Assembly: GCA_020847545.1 (NCBI GenBank)
Contig: JADLBV010000129.1
Location: 1-36,881, forward strand
Reading direction: 5' to 3'
From: Phycisphaerales bacterium
Lineage (GTDB): Bacteria; Planctomycetota; Phycisphaerae; Tepidisphaerales; Tepidisphaeraceae
DNA length: 36,881 bases
Shown here: positions 27,052-36,778 of the stretch, piece by piece
Layout: each line of letters begins with the position of its first letter
How positions within the stretch are numbered: position 1 is the stretch's first letter
The notes under the pieces: model-generated
The model's input: the letters and a program-made list of their open reading frames with translations, nothing else
Database searches by the model: none
What the model was told of the DNA's origin: nothing
Made by a program: the position numbers and the translations under genes

Positions 27052-27104
27052 CGAGTTGGCAAAAATGGCGATAATCGGCCGTTTTGAGGGGCGAGTTGGC
27101 AAAA
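27052..27104 (+). repeat. Paired CGAGTTGGCAAAA motifs
   Basis: The identical 13-mer occurs at 27052-27064 and 27092-27104, offset by 40 bp, about four helical turns. They lie between the phased GGGAT array and the first gene of the element end and are candidate MuA-type binding sites. Confidence 0.7.
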
Positions 27105-27258: not shown

Positions 27259-27930
27259 CTATAGAAATTTCATCACCAGGGCAGGGGTGGGGGGGGAGCC
27301 GGGGGAGGTGAGGAGCATGAGGAACCAGGTGCGCGAGCAGTCGGGGGTGCCGCAGCGGTAGACCTTCCGAGTCTGGCTGGCGGACTTTTCCTCGATCATC
27401 TTCAGCGGTCGGCCGCAGCCGGGGCACTCGATCAGCTCGACTCTATATATAAGGTGTGGGCCGCCGCCGGTGGGGCGGCGGGTGTAGGGGAGGCCGGGGG
27501 CATCATACCCTCTCCCCTGCGACCCTCTCCCCTGCCCCTCTCCCTGCGTACAGGGAGAGGGAAGAATCAGATCGCCGGCGCGGTCGAAGAGTTCGCCGTC
27601 GATGGTCAGGGTGAGGGGGATGCCCATGGCGTCGAGCTGGCGGTCGCGGTCAGTCGGCTGGGGGCGGGTGGTTTTGAGGCGCCAGACCTCGGCCTGGCAA
27701 TTTGTGCCGGGGCGGGTGCGGCGATCGCCGGTCGGCTCGATCAGACCGTCGCGGGCCAGCTCGGTCAGACGGCCGCTGATCTGGTGGTCGAAGACGTTCA
27801 TCGCGTCGGCCAGTTCCCAGAGGGCCATGGGCTGCTGAGTCAAAAGATCGAGGATGCGCAGCCGCCGGCTGGTGTTGTGGCGGGCGGCGGCCTGGCCGGC
27901 CTGGGCGGAGGTTTGATTGAATAAAGTCAT
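27259..27930 (-). CDS. Winged-HTH plus zinc-ribbon protein, last gene of element
   Basis: A 223-residue protein. The N-terminal part (about 20-90) is a winged helix: RRLRILDLLTQQPMALWELADAM, then QISGRLTELARDGLIEPTG and a basic wing. The C-terminal part has a zinc-ribbon: ECPGCGRPLKMIEE ... YRCGTPDCSRTWF, four cysteines in C-x2-C / C-x4-C spacing. The middle (about 123-140) is LPSPCTQGEGQGRG, which is translated from the palindromic repeat at 27536-27561 and so is probably inserted or expanded sequence. It may be a DNA-binding regulator. Its position at the downstream end of the element resembles accessory or regulatory cargo genes. There is no good Shine-Dalgarno; it starts 15 bp after the preceding stop. 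Confidence 0.7.
   Translation of the reverse strand: MTLFNQTSAQAGQAAARHNTSRRLRILDLLTQQPMALWELADAMNVFDHQISGRLTELARDGLIEPTGDRRTRPGTNCQAEVWRLKTTRPQPTDRDRQLDAMGIPLTLTIDGELFDRAGDLILPSPCTQGEGQGRGSQGRGYDAPGLPYTRRPTGGGPHLIYRVELIECPGCGRPLKMIEEKSASQTRKVYRCGTPDCSRTWFLMLLTSPGSPPTPALVMKFL
27536..27561. repeat. Palindromic repeat, copy 1
   Basis: Arms CCCTCTCCCTG and CAGGGAGAGGG around a 4-base centre (CGTA). It lies inside the winged-HTH/zinc-ribbon gene, where the minus strand is read as PSPCTQGEG. It is preceded on the plus strand by CCCTCTCCCCTGC-type half units. Confidence 0.85.
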
Positions 27931-27945: not shown

Positions 27946-28200
27946 CTAGAACGGGTTTTCGGGCAATGGGATTGGCCGGTGCGGCGGGATAAATCCCGCC
28001 CTACATTGGGCGCGGCGGATGAATCTTTCCAGGGTTTTGCGTCGGGTGGTCTGGCCGGGGAAGGCGGCGATGGCGGCCAGTGTGGCGCGCAGGGCGGGCA
28101 GGTGGTCGGGCAGATCGCCGTTGCGCCAGTGACAGTCCAGCGTGGAGCGCAGGTCGGCGTTGCTGGTGGAAATCCAGTCTTGGCGGGGCGGGGTTTTCAT
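27946..28200 (-). CDS. Small basic protein of the element
   Basis: An unrecognised 84-residue protein beginning MKTPPRQDWISTSNADLRSTL. The ATG at 28200 is preceded by AAGGAGG with five bases spacing, the best Shine-Dalgarno in this part, which decides the start over an upstream ATG at 28245. The middle is helical and Leu/Ala-rich (LPALRATLAAIAAFPGQTTRRKTLERFI). The last 17 residues (CRAGFIPPHRPIPLPENPF) come from the GGCGGGAT palindrome at 27983-28000, so the original protein was probably shorter. No function is suggested. Confidence 0.65.
   Translation of the reverse strand: MKTPPRQDWISTSNADLRSTLDCHWRNGDLPDHLPALRATLAAIAAFPGQTTRRKTLERFIRRAQCRAGFIPPHRPIPLPENPF
27983..28000. repeat. GGCGGGAT/ATCCCGCC palindrome, copy 1
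   Basis: GGCGGGAT AA ATCCCGCC, followed by CTACA. The same 23 bases occur at 30086-30108 between the gp10-like and MuF genes. Here it provides the 3' coding end of the small basic protein. Confidence 0.85.
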
Positions 28201-28225
28201 GGCAACCTCCTTGTTGCGTATCAGG

Positions 28226-28444
28226 TTAAGATTTAATTCTTTCATCCCGCGGGTGGCGGACGCCGGGGGCTATTGGCTCCCAGCGGATGCCGTGATCGCC
28301 GGGCCAGGGTTGGCGGTGGTCATGCTCACCATCGGTGATGGCCATAGGAATACCAGGCGCGACAGGGAAAGCGTCACAAATCATTCCCGGTCCTTTGGGG
28401 CGATAATGCTTGCAACGCCGGCATTGGGTTGGAATTGCGATCAT
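28226..28444 (-). CDS. Small cysteine-containing protein coupled to MuF
   Basis: A 72-residue protein: MIAIPTQCRRCKHYRPKGPG, then CDAFPVAPGIPMAI, DGEHDHRQPWPGDHGIRWEP. The pattern C-x2-C-K-H-Y ... C-x-A-F-P-x-G-I-P ... H-x2-P-x-P-G-D-x-G-I resembles a short protein often found directly next to MuF-type minor head genes in phages (recognised from memory, not searched). The ATG overlaps the MuF stop as ATGA, so translation is coupled. Its role is unknown; a head-assembly helper or, given the peptidase-like MuF tail, an immunity protein are both possible. It extends 19 bp past the upstream ATG of the next gene's frame. Confidence 0.75.
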   Translation of the reverse strand: MIAIPTQCRRCKHYRPKGPGMICDAFPVAPGIPMAITDGEHDHRQPWPGDHGIRWEPIAPGVRHPRDERIKS

Positions 28445-30069
28445 TGGCCGCTGAGCCTCCGGTAAAGGTCCATCACCTGCGAATCGTAACGCTTGCCGGC
28501 CAGACGGCCGGCGAGTACTTCCGCGATAAATTCGTCCGCATTCTCCGCCGCGCGGAACGAAACCCGCGAGGCGACGGCGAATTCCGTCGTCGTCAAGCGG
28601 CGGTTTTGATGATCGAGTTTTCGGGTTGCGAAATTGTTGTGGGCCTGTTCGTGGAACATCACATGTCGCGGGTCGGCGGAGGAAAGGTATCCCGCCTGAT
28701 GCTCCCGCTTCATAAATCCGGCCGGGTCTTTCCAAAACGGAGCGGCGGGATTGAGGTAGATGGCGCGCGAAGCGTAATTCGTTGTGGCAATTCGATCCGG
28801 GTCGCCGTTAAACCTGTCCAAGGTTGCATCGATGGATTCGGGCATGGGCAATCCGGCGGAGGCGGTCTGCTGGATGCTTCGGACGGCGTTGGCGCCGATG
28901 TCGGAACGGTCGCCGAGGTTGACGTGTTTTACGCCCATCTCCTTGAGCAGGTGGGTGTGGTAGGCCGGGTCATCGGAGTCGCTGACCTGGTGTTTGGGGC
29001 CGGTGCCTTTGTTGATCTCCTTCATGCGCTGTTTAACGGCCGCTTTTCGCTGCAGGTCATTAAAGGTACGCACGGCGTCGGAGGGTTGTTTTTTCCATTG
29101 CTGGGCGATTTTCGCGGTTTCCGGTTCCGGTCGGGCGGCCTGGCGCTGGGCGGGGGTGGCCAGGTTGGGGACATAGGCGGCGATGCCCTTGGAGCAGTTG
29201 GGATGAAAGGGCGGGCCGCCGCCGGGGAGGCTGTCCAGGGGCGGATAATCTTTAGAGTCGCCCTTGATGGAGTAGACCTTGCCCAGGAACTCCGAGCAGG
29301 GGTTGTTGGACTGGCGGCCGTCGATGACGACCAGCTCGACGCCCTCGCGCTGGTACTGGAGAAGATTGCCGTTGGTGATGGCCTGGGCGGTCTGGGTGCG
29401 GACGACCATCTCGGCATAGACGCGGGCATCGTAATGCCGGGTGTCGCCGTTGCGGTCGACCACCTGGACGAGCCGGCCATTGTGGGCGCGGACCAGTTGA
29501 TCGCGCAACTGGCGGCCGGCCAGCGTGCGGTCGCCGGAGATTAGCCGGCCGGCGATGACCTGGTCGATGTCGGCTTCGGAGAGGTTGGCCTGGGAGGTGG
29601 CGCGGAGGATGCGCCGGGCGGATTCGCCCATGGAGGCGGCGGCCTGGTGGAGGTCGCCGGCCATTTTCTGGGCGACGACGCGGATGGCGTCGTGATTGAT
29701 AACGTTGAAATTGGCGTCCAGGCCCGCGGGGCCGCCAGGGGCCGGTCCCCGGCCGTGGAGGACCAGTGTGGTGTGGCGGTTGAGGCGGCGAATCTGGTCG
29801 GCCGCCATCGCCCGGCCGGCGCCGGCGGCGGCGGGTATGGCCCTGGCGGCGTAGGCGGCGGCGCGGCCTTGAAGGACCTGAACGATGCGGTCGATCTGCT
29901 GGAGTTTCTGGCGGGCGGCGTTGGCCCGCCATTGGGCCGAGGCGGTGGTGGCGCCGGTGGGATGCAGGGCCATCTGGGCCAGTTCCTTCTGGGCGCGCTG
30001 GTAGAGGGCCAGCAGCTTTTGCCGCTCGGCGGGCTGGAGGCGGGCGAAGATGGCAGCGAGGTCGGGCAT
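28441..30069 (-). CDS. MuF-like head protein with C-terminal zincin-type domain
   Basis: A 542-residue protein. The central part (about 215-300) is the MuF/SPP1-gp7 head-morphogenesis domain: VVRTQTAQAITNGNLLQYQ, EGVELVVIDGRQSNNPC, GPPFHPNCSKGI, with the C...H-P-N-C signature. The N-terminal 200 residues are helical. The C-terminal third (about 360-542) is different: it carries HEQAH at 473-477, the HExxH zinc-peptidase motif, followed about 30 residues later by ENADEFIAEVLAGRL, which offers a third metal-binding or catalytic Glu (E513 or E517). MuF proteins with variable C-terminal enzymatic domains are known as phage-borne polymorphic toxins. Here the gene sits in an element lacking other head genes. 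It has an ATG start and no clear Shine-Dalgarno; the downstream gene is ATGA-coupled. Confidence 0.85.
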   Translation of the reverse strand: MPDLAAIFARLQPAERQKLLALYQRAQKELAQMALHPTGATTASAQWRANAARQKLQQIDRIVQVLQGRAAAYAARAIPAAAGAGRAMAADQIRRLNRHTTLVLHGRGPAPGGPAGLDANFNVINHDAIRVVAQKMAGDLHQAAASMGESARRILRATSQANLSEADIDQVIAGRLISGDRTLAGRQLRDQLVRAHNGRLVQVVDRNGDTRHYDARVYAEMVVRTQTAQAITNGNLLQYQREGVELVVIDGRQSNNPCSEFLGKVYSIKGDSKDYPPLDSLPGGGPPFHPNCSKGIAAYVPNLATPAQRQAARPEPETAKIAQQWKKQPSDAVRTFNDLQRKAAVKQRMKEINKGTGPKHQVSDSDDPAYHTHLLKEMGVKHVNLGDRSDIGANAVRSIQQTASAGLPMPESIDATLDRFNGDPDRIATTNYASRAIYLNPAAPFWKDPAGFMKREHQAGYLSSADPRHVMFHEQAHNNFATRKLDHQNRRLTTTEFAVASRVSFRAAENADEFIAEVLAGRLAGKRYDSQVMDLYRRLSGQ

Positions 30070-30085
30070 GGTCTTTGTCCGTCGC

Positions 30086-30153
30086 GGCGGGATAAATCCC
30101 GCCCTACAATCTAGAGACTAGAAAATCATCACGCATCACGCTCCACGCATCAC
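30086..30153. repeat. Repeat cluster between gp10-like and MuF genes
   Basis: This 91-bp gap is made largely of repeats: the second GGCGGGAT/ATCCCGCC palindrome (30086-30103, then CTACA), CTAGAGACTAGAAA (30111-30124), whose exact reverse complement occurs at 30860-30873, and ACGCATCAC twice (30131 and 30145). No promoter or Shine-Dalgarno is evident. Confidence 0.7.
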
Positions 30154-30160
30154 TTCCATT

Positions 30161-30526
30161 TTACAACGCATTTTCGATCTCCGTCAGAAGATACTGCTCC
30201 AGGTCGGGCATCTGGTTGATGGCGTTTTCGAGGAACTTAGCCTCGCCTTCGGGGTGGTGCAGGTCGAGGCGCTCGTGGACGGCGGCGGCGTAGCTCATAT
30301 TGAAGCCGATGGTTTTGGTCAGTTGACCGTTGTGGCCTTCGGTGGGCAGGGCCGTGGCGGAGCGGCGCAGGTCGCCGGTTTTAATGGGCGCCCGCTGGCG
30401 GGCGTTGGTCAACGCCGCCTGGGCGTAGAGGTTGAGCGCCCGCCTGGCGGCGTCCATGGCCAGGCGGTGCGGCTCGCCGCCGGGCTGGAGGCTGGCCAGA
30501 AATTTGGAAAGGTCGGTGGAGGTCAT
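30161..30526 (-). CDS. HK97-gp10-like phage protein
   Basis: A 121-residue protein resembling HK97-gp10-type tail/neck proteins. The pattern ALTNARQRAPIKTGDLRRSATAL is the characteristic A-x-x-x-A-P-x-x-T-G-x-L-R-x-S segment, followed by IGFNMSYAAAVHERL (Y-A-x-x-V-H/E) and a C-terminal helix EAKFLENAINQ. In tailed phages the protein joins head and tail. Start chosen at ATG 30526 (MTSTDLSKF); the frame is open to 30616 but that part is translated palindrome. Its place before, rather than after, MuF is unusual, and no other tail gene is present. Confidence 0.78.
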   Translation of the reverse strand: MTSTDLSKFLASLQPGGEPHRLAMDAARRALNLYAQAALTNARQRAPIKTGDLRRSATALPTEGHNGQLTKTIGFNMSYAAAVHERLDLHHPEGEAKFLENAINQMPDLEQYLLTEIENAL

Positions 30527-30530
30527 GGGG

Positions 30531-30842
30531 CTAGGTGCTAGAGGTTGAGTGCTGGAAAATACGACCCTCTCCCTTACCCTCTCCCTGGGTACAGGGAGAG
30601 GGATATATATCGGCACGCAGGCCGGAGGCGGTGATGTTGGTGACGCCAGCCATGCCGCTTAGCCAGACGAACACTTCGTCCAGCGACGGCTTCTCCACCG
30701 TCTGGAGGATGGCCACGCCGGAGGCGATGTCGTGGCAGGCCCACTGGCCGCCGCCCAGATGGACGCAGTAGGCGATCAGTTTTTGGCCGCAAAAACCGCA
30801 GATTTCCTTGATGGACGATTCGATGACCCGGTATTTTCGCAT
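30531..30842 (-). CDS. Small cysteine-rich protein with repeat-derived tail
   Basis: A 103-residue protein starting MRKYRVIESSIKEICGFCG. The ATG at 30842 has AGAGGAG with eight bases spacing. The N-terminal half holds C-x2-C, then C and C (ICGFCGQKLIAYC, WACHD), suggesting metal binding. The last 25 residues (YPSPCTQGEGKGEGR...) come from the palindromic repeat at 30577-30602 and from low-complexity CTAG-type sequence. The core of about 78 residues is probably the original protein. No function is recognised. It ends four bases before the gp10-like start. Confidence 0.7.
   Translation of the reverse strand: MRKYRVIESSIKEICGFCGQKLIAYCVHLGGGQWACHDIASGVAILQTVEKPSLDEVFVWLSGMAGVTNITASGLRADIYPSPCTQGEGKGEGRIFQHSTSST
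30577..30602. repeat. Palindromic repeat, copy 2
   Basis: Arms CCCTCTCCCTG / CAGGGAGAGGG with centre GGTA, preceded by the half unit ACCCTCTCCCTT. It provides the 3' coding part of the small cysteine-rich gene and, in another frame, an open extension upstream of the gp10-like gene. Confidence 0.9.
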
Positions 30843-30855
30843 GGGTTTATCTCCT

Positions 30856-31389
30856 CTAGTTTCTAGTCTCTAGCACCTGGTTTCTAGAATAAAGGCCTTC
30901 CGTGGCCGCGGCGGCGACCGTGCCGCCGGGGCTTCCTTGCCGTGGCGCGGCGGCAACCTTGCCGCCTTCGGGGACAGATTCTTTTCGGTCGACGATGGCC
31001 TTGAGGGCCTCGATGACGTTGTACGCCTCGAAGGGTTCGAGCCGGCCGGGGTCGTCGGTGCGGCCGCAGCTCATCCGGCGGCAAAAGCCGTCCAAGTCCA
31101 GGCCGGCGGCCTGGGCGAGGGCGCCCATCTTGTAGAGCTGCTCATCGGAGACTTCGTGGCCGCGGGCGGCCACCTTGCGGCGGTAGTGGTCGGGGCGTTT
31201 GGATTGGTCGCAAAAGCCCATTTCCTCCAGAAACGCGAGCATATTTTCAAAGCTGCGGTTGTTGAGGTCTTTGGCGCTGGACACGCGGGCGATGTTGCGC
31301 AGGGCCATGCGCCAGGGGGCATCGTCGCGCAGTTGCGGCACCTGGCGGCGGGCGGTTTGCAGGAGGATGATCTGGGGTTTGGTGAGCAT
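30856..31389 (-). CDS. gemA: GemA/gp16-like regulatory protein
   Basis: A 177-residue protein matching the Mu gp16/GemA (DUF1018) family. The opening MLTKPQIILLQTARRQVPQLRDDAPWRMAL, then NIARVSSAKDLNNRSFENMLAFLEEMG is the family core (x-K-Q-I-x-L-x-H... and S-S-K-D-L). The middle is helical with FCRRMSCG. In phage Mu GemA alters host gene expression and DNA supercoiling; here that is inference from family. The ATG 31389 lies four bases after the previous stop, with no Shine-Dalgarno, so translation is probably coupled. The last 35 residues (GGKVAAAPRQGSPGGTVAAAATEG) are a degenerate Gly/Ala repeat and CTAG-type sequence, unlike the rest. Confidence 0.78.
   Translation of the reverse strand: MLTKPQIILLQTARRQVPQLRDDAPWRMALRNIARVSSAKDLNNRSFENMLAFLEEMGFCDQSKRPDHYRRKVAARGHEVSDEQLYKMGALAQAAGLDLDGFCRRMSCGRTDDPGRLEPFEAYNVIEALKAIVDRKESVPEGGKVAAAPRQGSPGGTVAAAATEGLYSRNQVLETRN
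30860..30873. repeat. CTAG-type repeat, inverted copy
   Basis: TTTCTAGTCTCTAG here is the exact reverse complement of 30111-30124. It forms the last codons of the gemA-like gene. Related TCTAG elements lie on both sides (30855-30893). Confidence 0.7.
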
Positions 31390-31393
31390 GGGG

Positions 31394-31711
31394 TTAAAAC
31401 AAGTAACGGCCGCATTGCGTGCACTTGAGGTGCTCGTAGGTGTTGTAGTGGCCGTTTTGACATCGCCAGACTTTTTCCAGGAGCGTCGGGTTGTCCGGGT
31501 GGCCATACCGTTTGACGACCACGTCGGCCGGCTCCATCGCCCGGGCAAGGCCCGCCTTTGTGATGAAGAATTTTCCTTCAGCGTCTTCAACGGCATAGCC
31601 GCGATCGCGCAGCGCCTTGGCGGTGCAGCGGTCTGCCCCGATGTAGCCGCCGTCGCTGGCGCGGCGGAGCGCGGACAGCTGCACGGTGTTGAGCCTCCTG
31701 GACTTGCTCAT
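31394..31711 (-). CDS. Winged-HTH plus zinc-knuckle small protein
   Basis: A 105-residue protein. Residues 8-58 look like a short winged helix: LNTVQLSALRRASDGGYIGADRCTAKALRDRGYAVEDAEGKFFITKAGLARA. The C-terminus has CQNGHYNTYEHLKCTQCGRYLF, a C-x3-H ... C-x2-C zinc knuckle. Together these suggest a small DNA-binding regulator. ATG 31711 has AAAGGAGG with eight bases spacing, decisive for the start. It begins three bases after the preceding stop. No specific role is known; proteins of this layout are common in Mu-like elements between B and gemA. Confidence 0.78.
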   Translation of the reverse strand: MSKSRRLNTVQLSALRRASDGGYIGADRCTAKALRDRGYAVEDAEGKFFITKAGLARAMEPADVVVKRYGHPDNPTLLEKVWRCQNGHYNTYEHLKCTQCGRYLF

Positions 31712-31921: not shown

Positions 31922-33124
31922 TTACGCGGTGGCCCGTTGCTGGCGGGCTTCGATGATGGCCTGCTTGCTGGATTGCGCCCGATGCAGCGACAGACCGATT
32001 CGCCTGCCCTGCAGCAGGTCCAGCGACGCGGCATTGACGATGGCTCCGGGCTTGCCGTGGTCGCGGGCCAGGAGGACCAGCCACTTGACCACGCGCAGGC
32101 AGCCGCCGGCCCGCTCGTTGGCCTTGCGGACCAGGTACATCACCGCGTCGTCGGTCATGCCCATTTCATTCTCGCCAACCTTGCCGGATTCATCCCGCAC
32201 CAGCTTGATCTGCTGGGACGACAGAAAGAGGCGGATGTCGTCGACACTGTGAAGCGTTCCACCGCCGCCGCCGCCCTCCTCACCGGCGGCCAGCTTCTCG
32301 GAGAGGTCCAGCCAGCAAGAGGTGCGTCCGAACACCTGGTCGAGGGCCTCGAACTCCGAGGCTCCGCCCTGCACATACGTCTTCAGGTTCGCGGTGCCGA
32401 TCAGCATGAGCGGGCAGCCGGCCTCATCGTGCAGGTCGCGCAGGCAGTGCAGGCCCTCATCCCTGCGTTTGAGCGTCAACTTGTGCGCCTCGTCGACGAT
32501 GATCATTCGACCGGAGTTTTTCAGGATGGCGAAAATCTGCTGTTCGACCTGGTAGGCGGTCAATTTCAGACCCGTGATGCGCAACTGGCGGGCGATCATG
32601 TCCAGCACCGCCAGCTTGCTGGCGCCGGCGGTGGTGATGCGGATGAGGATCGACCCGATGATTTCCGAGCGCAGGAACTCGGCGGTCATCGACTTGCCGC
32701 AGCCGGAGGGGCCGGTGATGATGCCGATGCCGCCGATGCGATGCACCCGTTTGGCCAGGCCGATCATGTCCAGGGCGGCGGAGGTTTTCAGGAAGCCGGG
32801 AACCTTCGGCGCGGCCTCCTTAACCAGCAACTGCTCCAGGCCCTTGTCGACGCGGCGAATAATGGTCTCGCTGTCGCCCTTGTAGGTGCCGGCGAGGATC
32901 TCGCTGACGGTGGCGGGGCTGATGGCGAACGCCCTGGCGAGCACCTGCTGGCTTTTGCCGCTGCGCTGCTGATAATCCTTCACCCGCCTGATGATCGCGG
33001 CTTCGATTTCGGGGGTCAGTTCCTGGTCGTCTCGTAGCATCCGTGCTTCTCCTAAAATCCTGGCCTCCTCGGCCAGCCGGTCAATCCATTGGCTGTGAAA
33101 CTGGTAGCTCCCGTTGGGGTTCAT
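31922..33124 (-). CDS. muB: MuB-like target-selection ATPase
   Basis: A 400-residue AAA+ protein, partner of the transposase; MuB chooses target DNA and activates MuA. Residues about 40-105 form a HTH domain (KSQQVLARAFAISPATVSEIL), as in phage MuB. Walker A is GPSGCGKS (138-145); Walker B is MIIVDEAHK (207-215); sensor-like LIGTANLKTY follows. A Gly-rich loop (EEGGGGGGT) occurs near 305. Its ATG overlaps the muA stop as ATGA, so the two are translated together, fitting their joint role. It is slightly longer than Mu MuB (312), with a longer C-terminal region. Confidence 0.92.
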   Translation of the reverse strand: MNPNGSYQFHSQWIDRLAEEARILGEARMLRDDQELTPEIEAAIIRRVKDYQQRSGKSQQVLARAFAISPATVSEILAGTYKGDSETIIRRVDKGLEQLLVKEAAPKVPGFLKTSAALDMIGLAKRVHRIGGIGIITGPSGCGKSMTAEFLRSEIIGSILIRITTAGASKLAVLDMIARQLRITGLKLTAYQVEQQIFAILKNSGRMIIVDEAHKLTLKRRDEGLHCLRDLHDEAGCPLMLIGTANLKTYVQGGASEFEALDQVFGRTSCWLDLSEKLAAGEEGGGGGGTLHSVDDIRLFLSSQQIKLVRDESGKVGENEMGMTDDAVMYLVRKANERAGGCLRVVKWLVLLARDHGKPGAIVNAASLDLLQGRRIGLSLHRAQSSKQAIIEARQQRATA

Positions 33125-35268
33125 GATTCACCCCACAGGTCCAGGATCGCCCCGCCGCCGTCATCGGACGGCATTTCATCCTCGGCGGCCCGCCGGTAAA
33201 AGTCGTCCATCGCCGCCACATGCTCGGCCCCCACCGCCGGGCGAAGCTGCATTCGCTCCCGCCTCTGCTCGTCGGACTTCATCGCCGCCAACTGCTCCTC
33301 CAGGCCAGTCCGCACCATCTTCACCGAGTGCGGCGGGCGCGGTCCTTTGGGCGGCGTGGCGGCTTGCGCGGACGCCTGCCGGGCCTCCTGGAGCTTGGAC
33401 TCGACGAGCATCGCCAGTGCATCGGGGTGGACGCGAAGGCCGTGCTTGCGTACCTGCTTGAGGGCTTTGTTGTGGCGTTTCTTTTGCCGCTCGACGTCCA
33501 GCCATTGCGTCTCGGGGACCGCGCCAAAGGGCATCAGCTTGTGGGCGGCGACCGAACCGATCAGTTCCCCGGCCGGCGACCAGACCACGGCCCGGGACAC
33601 ATCCCGGGTGTCGATCGCGACCACCACCTCCTGGCCGTGGTGGTCGCGGAGGATCGGGTCGTTGCGGCCATAGGTCACGCCGCGAACACTCACGCCATTG
33701 CGGCCCACCCTGACCGGGACGCCCATCTTGTGCCGGAGCAGGTCCGCGATCGGGTCGGTGATGGCGAGCTTGGTCACCAGGTCCTGGTCGTAAACCTGGC
33801 TGGGCGTACGGCCGTTCATGCCCTGGCCAGTGTGGACCTGGTGGTGAAAGACCTGCTCGATGTATTCGCCGGCCGCCTCAATGAATTGCTCCAGCGTCGG
33901 CACCTGCGTGCCGGCGGCCAGAATATCCGACAAAGCCTGGGGTTTGTTCTGCGGCGTGTTGCCGCAGTAGGTGGGCCAGAGCCGGCCGAATTGATCTTCA
34001 AAGGTGCCGAACCAACGCTCGATCGGCTTGCTCTTGGCGTTGAAGGGCAGCGCGTGCTGTACGTGAGCGCCGATCAATTTCAGTGCGCCGGCACAGACGG
34101 CCTCGAACTCCACGCGGACCTTGCGCCGCTGGAGCTTGAACCGCTGCTGCTTGGTGACGCCCTGGACGGCGAACGAATCGTAATCCTTGCCGTTGTCGAT
34201 CAGGACCATGCGCGGGACGGCGTTGTCGGTGCGGTCGATGGCGTTGACCAGCGACTCGATGACGGCGGTGGCGTTGGGGTCCTGCACACGGATCAGCCAG
34301 CCGACGATGCGGCGGCTGTGGACATCCTGCCAGGCCGTCAGCCAGGGTCGGCGGTAAATCGGGATCGTCTCGCCGGTGCGGTGGTCGATGCGCTGACCGG
34401 CCCTAACGATGACATCGCACTCGTGGTGATCGCCGCACCACAGGTCGTTGGACTGCATGTCCCGCTCGACCTCGCCGAGGGGCACAAAGCGGGTGTAGTC
34501 GCGGTCAGTATAGGCGGCGTGGAGATCGTCGAACGCCTTGTTGCCGCGGCGGGCGGCGGTGACCTGGGCGGGATTGAGTTTGCGCAGATACCGTGCGGCC
34601 TGGCCATAACTGACGACCGGCCAGCCCGCCTTGGCGGCCTGGCGGCGGGCGAGCTTATAGGCGGTGCGCTTGGTGTTGGGGGGGGCGGCCAGATACCAGT
34701 CTTTGAGGGCCTCATAAAACGGGTTCGAGTGGTCTTCGACGCCGCATTCGCCCATGGCTTTGGCGGCATTTTTAGCGCGGCGGTCGATGACGCCCTTGCG
34801 GCCCTGAATTGTCCATTCGCCGTACCACCGGTGCAGGGTGCGGATGGAAAATTCGACGCCGCGCAGACGCCACTGATCAACGAAAGGCCCGGCGATGTCC
34901 GCCAGTTTGGCGCCGGGCGAAGCGGCCATGCGAAAAACATGCCATGCCATGCAAATCTCTTCGCGCTGAAGAAGTATGGCGCGGTGGGAGTTGGTCAATA
35001 CCGCGAGGTCGACCTGGTCATCTGTCACCTGTCGTCCCGCGAGCAAAAGCCTGGGGTGGGCGTCGGCGGAGATTTCCCAGCGGCCCTGGGCGCCCATGCG
35101 AGCTTTGCCGCACGCCAGCCATTGATCGCCGCAGAGGCGGCGGAGGTGGCCTTGGGAGAGGCCGCACTGGTGGGAGGCGGACTCGATGTCGAACCATCGG
35201 GTGGAGCCGGATGCGGGCCGGTTCGACCAGCCGGCGGCGGGCGAGGTTGTGGCCAATTGAAGGGTCAT
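33121..35268 (-). CDS. muA: Mu-type DDE transposase
   Basis: A 715-residue MuA-like transposase that cuts and joins element ends (Mu MuA has 663). The N-terminal part (about 25-160) holds HTH domains (CGLSQGHLRRLCG, FSIRTLHRWYGEW). The RNase H-like core has D280 in CGDHHECDV, D358 in LIDNGKDY and E417 in KPIERWFG, aligning with Mu D269, D336 and E392. A beta-barrel follows (GVPVRVGRNGVSVRGVTYG ... VVVAIDTRDVSRAVVW). The Lys/Arg-rich C-terminal tail probably contacts MuB. The ATG overlaps the upstream gene stop (ATGA); a heptamer tandem array lies 13 bp upstream of the start codon. All catalytic residues are present, so the enzyme may be active. Confidence 0.95.
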   Translation of the reverse strand: MTLQLATTSPAAGWSNRPASGSTRWFDIESASHQCGLSQGHLRRLCGDQWLACGKARMGAQGRWEISADAHPRLLLAGRQVTDDQVDLAVLTNSHRAILLQREEICMAWHVFRMAASPGAKLADIAGPFVDQWRLRGVEFSIRTLHRWYGEWTIQGRKGVIDRRAKNAAKAMGECGVEDHSNPFYEALKDWYLAAPPNTKRTAYKLARRQAAKAGWPVVSYGQAARYLRKLNPAQVTAARRGNKAFDDLHAAYTDRDYTRFVPLGEVERDMQSNDLWCGDHHECDVIVRAGQRIDHRTGETIPIYRRPWLTAWQDVHSRRIVGWLIRVQDPNATAVIESLVNAIDRTDNAVPRMVLIDNGKDYDSFAVQGVTKQQRFKLQRRKVRVEFEAVCAGALKLIGAHVQHALPFNAKSKPIERWFGTFEDQFGRLWPTYCGNTPQNKPQALSDILAAGTQVPTLEQFIEAAGEYIEQVFHHQVHTGQGMNGRTPSQVYDQDLVTKLAITDPIADLLRHKMGVPVRVGRNGVSVRGVTYGRNDPILRDHHGQEVVVAIDTRDVSRAVVWSPAGELIGSVAAHKLMPFGAVPETQWLDVERQKKRHNKALKQVRKHGLRVHPDALAMLVESKLQEARQASAQAATPPKGPRPPHSVKMVRTGLEEQLAAMKSDEQRRERMQLRPAVGAEHVAAMDDFYRRAAEDEMPSDDGGGAILDLWGES

Positions 35269-36565: not shown

Positions 36566-36778
36566 TCAGTTAACACTCGCCCTCCGCTGCCGCTTGTTCC
36601 AGTGAATCGCTGCCTCCCGCAGCGTTGGCTGCGCAGGTCCATCCCATTCGCAAATTGGGCAGTTGTACAAAAACCAGTTGCGGTTCCGATTATCTAAGAT
36701 GCGTTCGTAAGTTGGCTTATTCCCACACGCCGAGCACGGCTTGCATGGCGGTTTCCTTTTTCTGGTTTTGGCTGGCAT
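36566..36778 (-). CDS. Lar-like zinc-ribbon protein
   Basis: A 70-residue protein resembling the Lar restriction-alleviation family: basic N-terminus KTRKRKPPCKPCSACG, then YNCPICEWDGPA and LREAAIHWNKRQR. The two C-x2-C pairs form one zinc ribbon, and the E-A-A-I-x-x-W-N-x-R ending is the family hallmark. Lar proteins modulate host type I restriction during phage entry; here that is family inference. ATG 36778 has AGGAG five bases upstream within the end of the previous ORF (12 bp gap). It stops before the inverted-repeat cluster. Confidence 0.82.
   Translation of the reverse strand: MPAKTRKRKPPCKPCSACGNKPTYERILDNRNRNWFLYNCPICEWDGPAQPTLREAAIHWNKRQRRASVN

Follow-up and report, generated by a model that had tools for sequence, protein, structure and literature searches.

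MuF proteins carrying C-terminal enzymes were surveyed by Jamet et al. 2017 (PMC5576092), who found a metallopeptidase domain in 20% of 191 putative MuF toxins and a small ORF behind most of these putative toxins. Fusions of MuF to a metallopeptidase are therefore already known. Among the polyvalent proteins of phages, the zincin-like domain is the commonest of all (Iyer et al. 2017, PMC5512222); roles in processing or after injection have been proposed for it, and MuF has been proposed as a delivery domain. In the description of the halovirus Hardycor1 (PMC7911831) a MuF of the long type is noted, with no peptidase named.

We analysed a stretch of 36,881 nucleotides (the window) that makes up one entire contig, C149, of a Phycisphaerales genome assembled into 162 contigs totalling 3.75 Mb. 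Very probably the window holds one arm, the early one, of a Mu-like prophage whose head operon lies on another contig of the same assembly, C8, and whose MuF protein has acquired a zincin-like domain. The window edge falls inside the element, only 1.6 kb upstream of transposase A.

From the right edge leftwards, the minus strand carries a Lar-like zinc-ribbon protein of the restriction-alleviation family (36566-36778; PHROG 599, E 6.5e-6) and some small ORFs. Mu-type transposase A follows (33121-35268; PHROG 310, 1.9e-78; PF09299, 3.5e-8; PF02914, 5.9e-7), single-copy in the genome, and then the AAA ATPase transposition protein B (31922-33124; PHROG 296, 1.6e-47) and GemA (30856-31596; PF06252, 1.6e-11), so that A, B and GemA are all present, as in a Mu-like transposable phage. 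The gp10-like gene proposed in the first-pass annotation was confirmed as an HK97-gp10-like head-tail connector (PF04883, 6.6e-5; PHROG 5, 1e-7), 40% identical to the gp10 of a prophage in genome G303 and 37% to that of G393. Its long ORF spans 30161-30616, but its first residues are translated from a palindrome; the true start is therefore probably the MTSTDLSKF near 30526, with the gene itself taken as 30161 to about 30529. Behind gp10 come the MuF gene (28441-30069), a 72-aa ORF (28226-28444), a 99-aa ORF (27946-28245) that matched no family in Pfam and PHROG profile searches, and, as the final gene of the arm, an HTH protein (27259-27930; PHROG 1123, 7.4e-10). Close to the putative end of the element two copies of CGAGTTGGCAAAA stand 40 bp apart (27052-27104, plus strand), candidate transposase sites, and host genes start below approximately 26,930. 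A search of the genome for exact copies of CGAGTTGGCAAAA did not find the second element end; the sole other copy lies within valS on contig C11 and was rejected as chance, and the assembly has one end only. The first-pass annotation had also seen no terminase, portal, capsid or tail gene; this is true inside the window, but the window is a complete contig that ends within the element.

Matching head genes were found on C8 (L042; 11,087 bp), which carries TerL, portal, scaffold and capsid genes in the expected orientation, together with an HTH repressor facing A and a CI-like repressor. C8 has neither a transposase A nor a MuF gene, and its portal-capsid gap (7170-7788 of C8), the normal place of MuF, is without one. 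The TerL of C8 is 50% identical to the TerL adjoining A in genome G198. GC content is 0.643 in the element and 0.645 in C8, against 0.52-0.59 in host contigs, and high third-position GC is common to the element and C8 in most genes measured (gemA was left out of this comparison). A palindromic repeat, CCCTCTCCCTGGGTACAGGGAGAGGG, occurs six times in the 9.9 kb of the element (27536, 30577, 35337, 35804, 36263 and 36336), twice in C8 (2608 and 9491) and once in approximately 92 kb of sampled host contigs; some copies are translated into the N-termini of ORFs. No sequence overlap exists between C149 and C8, but from the gene content of C8 and the matching GC and palindromes we infer that the two almost certainly belong together. 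Terminase-like matches on three further contigs (C55, C82 and C136) were rejected as the terminase of the element, their surroundings being not Mu-like. The one on C55 (L043:12324-13787; PHROG 2, 5e-18) has HTH and P-loop genes as neighbours, lies in surroundings that are not phage and is possibly domesticated.

Sister elements show how such a prophage is laid out. In three genomic contigs (G303:C49, G157:C9 and G198:C11) a TerL-portal-head operon lies on the strand opposite A, 2-8 kb upstream of it. In three IMG/VR records (34,567, 35,231 and 34,978 bp) the genes A, B and gemA are on the opposite strand to portal, MuF, scaffold and head genes. Their portals are 37-45% identical to the C8 portal, the range also of the IMG/VR phages with a C8-like portal, capsid and other head genes, which have a window-type MuF between portal and scaffold.

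The closest parallel to the window comes from another Phycisphaerales genome, G392 (JANYKD01), in which one contig (L061) has A-B-gemA-MuF-gp10, the gene set of the window; its B protein is 42% identical to that of the window, and its MuF is without the extension. The first 141 bases of L061 are exactly the last 141 of contig C350 and also of C352. Both of these contigs hold capsid-portal-TerL together with the first part of A; MuF is absent from them. The last 141 bases of L061 are the first 141 of C514, which completes gp10 and continues into a homolog of the HTH protein. This homolog is 52% identical to the one in the window, and another at the same place in G397 is 40% identical. Contig names in G392 indicate assembly at k=141; overlaps of this length therefore make C350 or C352, L061 and C514 neighbours in the assembly graph. 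It follows that A-B-gemA-MuF-gp10 makes up the early arm of a prophage with a TerL, portal and capsid of its own. That both C350 and C352 (L159 and L160) are joined by 141-bp overlaps to a single A-B-gemA-MuF contig suggests that G392 holds two closely related Mu-like prophages. Canonical relatives have MuF behind the portal and gp10 also in the late operon, whereas the window and G392 have the two genes between gemA and the HTH gene, in swapped order (gp10-MuF in the window, MuF-gp10 in G392). Judged by gene order, the pair left the late operon for the early arm, a relocation common to these two lineages.

Searches with the tail proteins of relatives, one set from G303 and one from G393/G398, gave no tail gene in the genome. 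Such genes may have diverged, be unassembled or be missing, and the prophage may be defective. An unlikely alternative, though the one that best survives beside the two-contig prophage, is accordingly a degenerate Mu-like element that has lost its tail and keeps the remaining genes by inertia, a reading with which the insertion of palindromes into intergenic and N-terminal regions would agree. Against such decay speak the open reading frames of A, B, gemA, gp10, MuF, TerL, portal and capsid and the strong bias of third positions in most genes measured; moreover, the tail queries are distant ones, and C8 stops short of the tail region.

The MuF ORF encodes 542 aa, the length given in the first-pass annotation, and is single-copy in the genome. 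Residues 126-309 match PF06152, Phage_min_cap2 (E 1.7e-7; 31 bits, above the curated cut-off of 26.3), and PHROG 4611 ('minor head protein', E 1.4e-26) aligns over residues 53-359. The protein thus falls in the MuF superfamily, but by PF06152 and not by PF04233 (Phage_Mu_F), the model first put forward, which matched neither this protein nor anything else in the genome in a profile search. The MuF domain occupies approximately residues 1-345 and the zincin-like domain approximately 356-542. An HPNC signature had been placed near residue 297; it is present, at 289-292. Many MuF proteins, from IMG/VR phages and planctomycete prophages, share ∼30-44% identity with the N-terminal part. Nearly all close relatives among them extend only 50-80 aa past FHPNC, whereas the window protein extends ∼250. 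Unlike its planctomycete relatives it thus has an extension that, by its motifs, is protease-like. In IMG/VR no close relatives of the entire protein or of its C-terminal domain were found. One IMG/VR phage MuF ORF (L103:762-2741) is apparently interrupted inside FHPNC by a long insert ending in ...VVVHNC, intein-like. The gene of the window is not directly downstream of a portal, where its relatives have theirs, lying instead behind gemA and gp10; since the place behind the portal is the usual genomic position of MuF and not a property of the protein, this lowers only the claim to a canonical locus.

In the C-terminal domain the motif HEQAH (473-477) is where the first-pass annotation had it, and the later EFIAE is at 513-517. 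A tblastn search of 2.3 Gb of phage records detected the domain in halovirus BLv36 (E 6e-4), and pairwise BLASTP of the window protein with BLv36 and with the Hardycor1 MuF gave E ∼3e-8, so the two motifs are beyond chance. The partners of the domain differ: in Hardycor1 it follows MuF, alignable over residues 221-541 (E 2.6e-8); in BLv36 it follows a Mu-type portal; in HGTV-1 it stands alone (ORF 247); and in the Pamexvirus-type AAT-1 head protein, as in the close relatives of that protein in vB_Sm_QDWS359 and Donnerlittchen, it sits between MuF and an ADP-ribosyltransferase. Across six distant proteins with different partners the HExxH (HEQAH, HEFGH, HEVGH, HEMAH or HELGH) and the downstream Glu, in a motif of the type E(F/M/V/L)xAE, are kept. 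These alignments argue for a real, recurring family without a Pfam model.

The domain is likely a zincin, because HExxH and the E..AE motif are kept throughout and because Pamexvirus-like and IMG/VR members show similarity, sub-threshold only, to metallopeptidase families M12, M48 and M78. The zinc-metallopeptidase layout proposed at first sight is thus borne out at the level of sequence, but not by the structure models. No curated family in Pfam or NCBIfam matched the domain above cut-off, no PDB sequence matched (hits in a PDB profile search were at chance level only), and profile searches with curated toxin families matched nothing in the extension. AlphaFold models from a single sequence and from a shallow alignment were poor (mean pLDDT 40 and 50), approaching or exceeding 70 only around the HEQAH and ExxAE helices, and fold searches with these models gave no match. 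Such blank results would suit a non-enzymatic structural domain of the head with a fortuitous HExxH, but the persistence of HExxH and the ExxAE-type Glu beside different partners and the peptidase resemblance of Pamexvirus-like members leave that reading somewhat less likely still than degeneration of the prophage.

The start codon of the 72-aa ORF, which falls within the interval given in the first-pass annotation, overlaps the MuF stop codon (ATGA), so that a small ORF lies immediately behind MuF, as in MuF polymorphic toxins. Its product (PHROG 33375, 3e-4) has the pattern CxxC..CDAFP..GIP..GDHGI.W.P. Homologs come straight after long MuF genes on two contigs (L073 and L074) of a Ca. Hebobacteria MAG. 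The MuF proteins there (L073:1-1725 and L074:1922-2854) have a C-terminal domain of another type, with a THNH motif. The ORF is a candidate partner or immunity gene; the immunity reading is weakened by the other C-terminal type of the long MuF proteins that its homologs accompany, and a partner of MuF would fit more readily than a peptidase-specific immunity protein.

The two-contig prophage would work as follows. The early arm in the window, with A, B, gemA and the relocated gp10 and MuF, would be complemented by C8 with its divergent operon for packaging and head (repressors, TerL, portal, scaffold and capsid). The MuF part would be built into the procapsid at the portal, and the C-terminal domain, as an acquired zincin-like metallopeptidase, would travel in the head and act either as a processing enzyme on head proteins or on itself, or, once injected, in a new host, perhaps with the 72-aa protein as its partner or immunity protein. 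A phage-borne effector or toxin role of the domain is possible by analogy with other long MuF proteins (PMC5576092). Such a role is not derivable from missing head genes. Production of the MuF effector early or in the lysogen could have been the cause of the move of MuF and gp10 to the early arm in this Phycisphaerae lineage, the head-borne protease and its coupled small protein then having a task apart from virion assembly, such as defence or superinfection exclusion; in our judgement this is rather improbable. Weakest of all is the first-pass proposal of a transposon with transposition genes plus MuF and gp10 only, kept as cargo or as a satellite using a helper's head: the window has no other head gene, C8 is not physically joined to it and the tail queries found nothing in the genome, but the contig ends inside the element, C8 has matching head genes with the same GC and repeats, and the same gene set in G392 is linked to its own TerL-portal-capsid, so that head genes beyond the window edge, which the annotation had itself set against its proposal, are found in sister elements and almost certainly here, and the proposal is refuted as far as assembly and relatives allow.

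The appearance of a helper-dependent transposon was an artefact of the contig end and is now corrected. What the locus documents is a Phycisphaerae group of Mu-like phages with divergent arms. Its probable zincin-like domain, virion-associated and without a Pfam model, would connect archaeal and bacterial tailed viruses, and the two lineages in which MuF and gp10 have moved to the early arm offer a modest, testable evolutionary curiosity.

Compared with MuF polymorphic toxins, the window protein shares a MuF2-type (PF06152) N-terminus, a long C-terminal extension, a small ORF behind and a temperate phage as carrier; it differs in that its peptidase-like domain has no Pfam model, its gene does not adjoin the portal and a toxin role is only putative. 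The MuF of Halorubrum phage Hardycor1 (HrrHc1_040) likewise joins MuF to the same HExxH...ExxAE domain, but it is of the PF04233 type, stands in the standard place behind the portal and belongs to a phage of an archaeal host. Polyvalent proteins with a zincin-like MPTase also have such a domain in virion-packaged multidomain proteins (12 MPTase clades), whereas the window protein has only two domains. With Mu-like transposable phages the element shares transposase A, ATPase B, GemA, a repressor pair and a head operon; it is set apart by a head operon divergent from A-B and by MuF and gp10 behind gemA.
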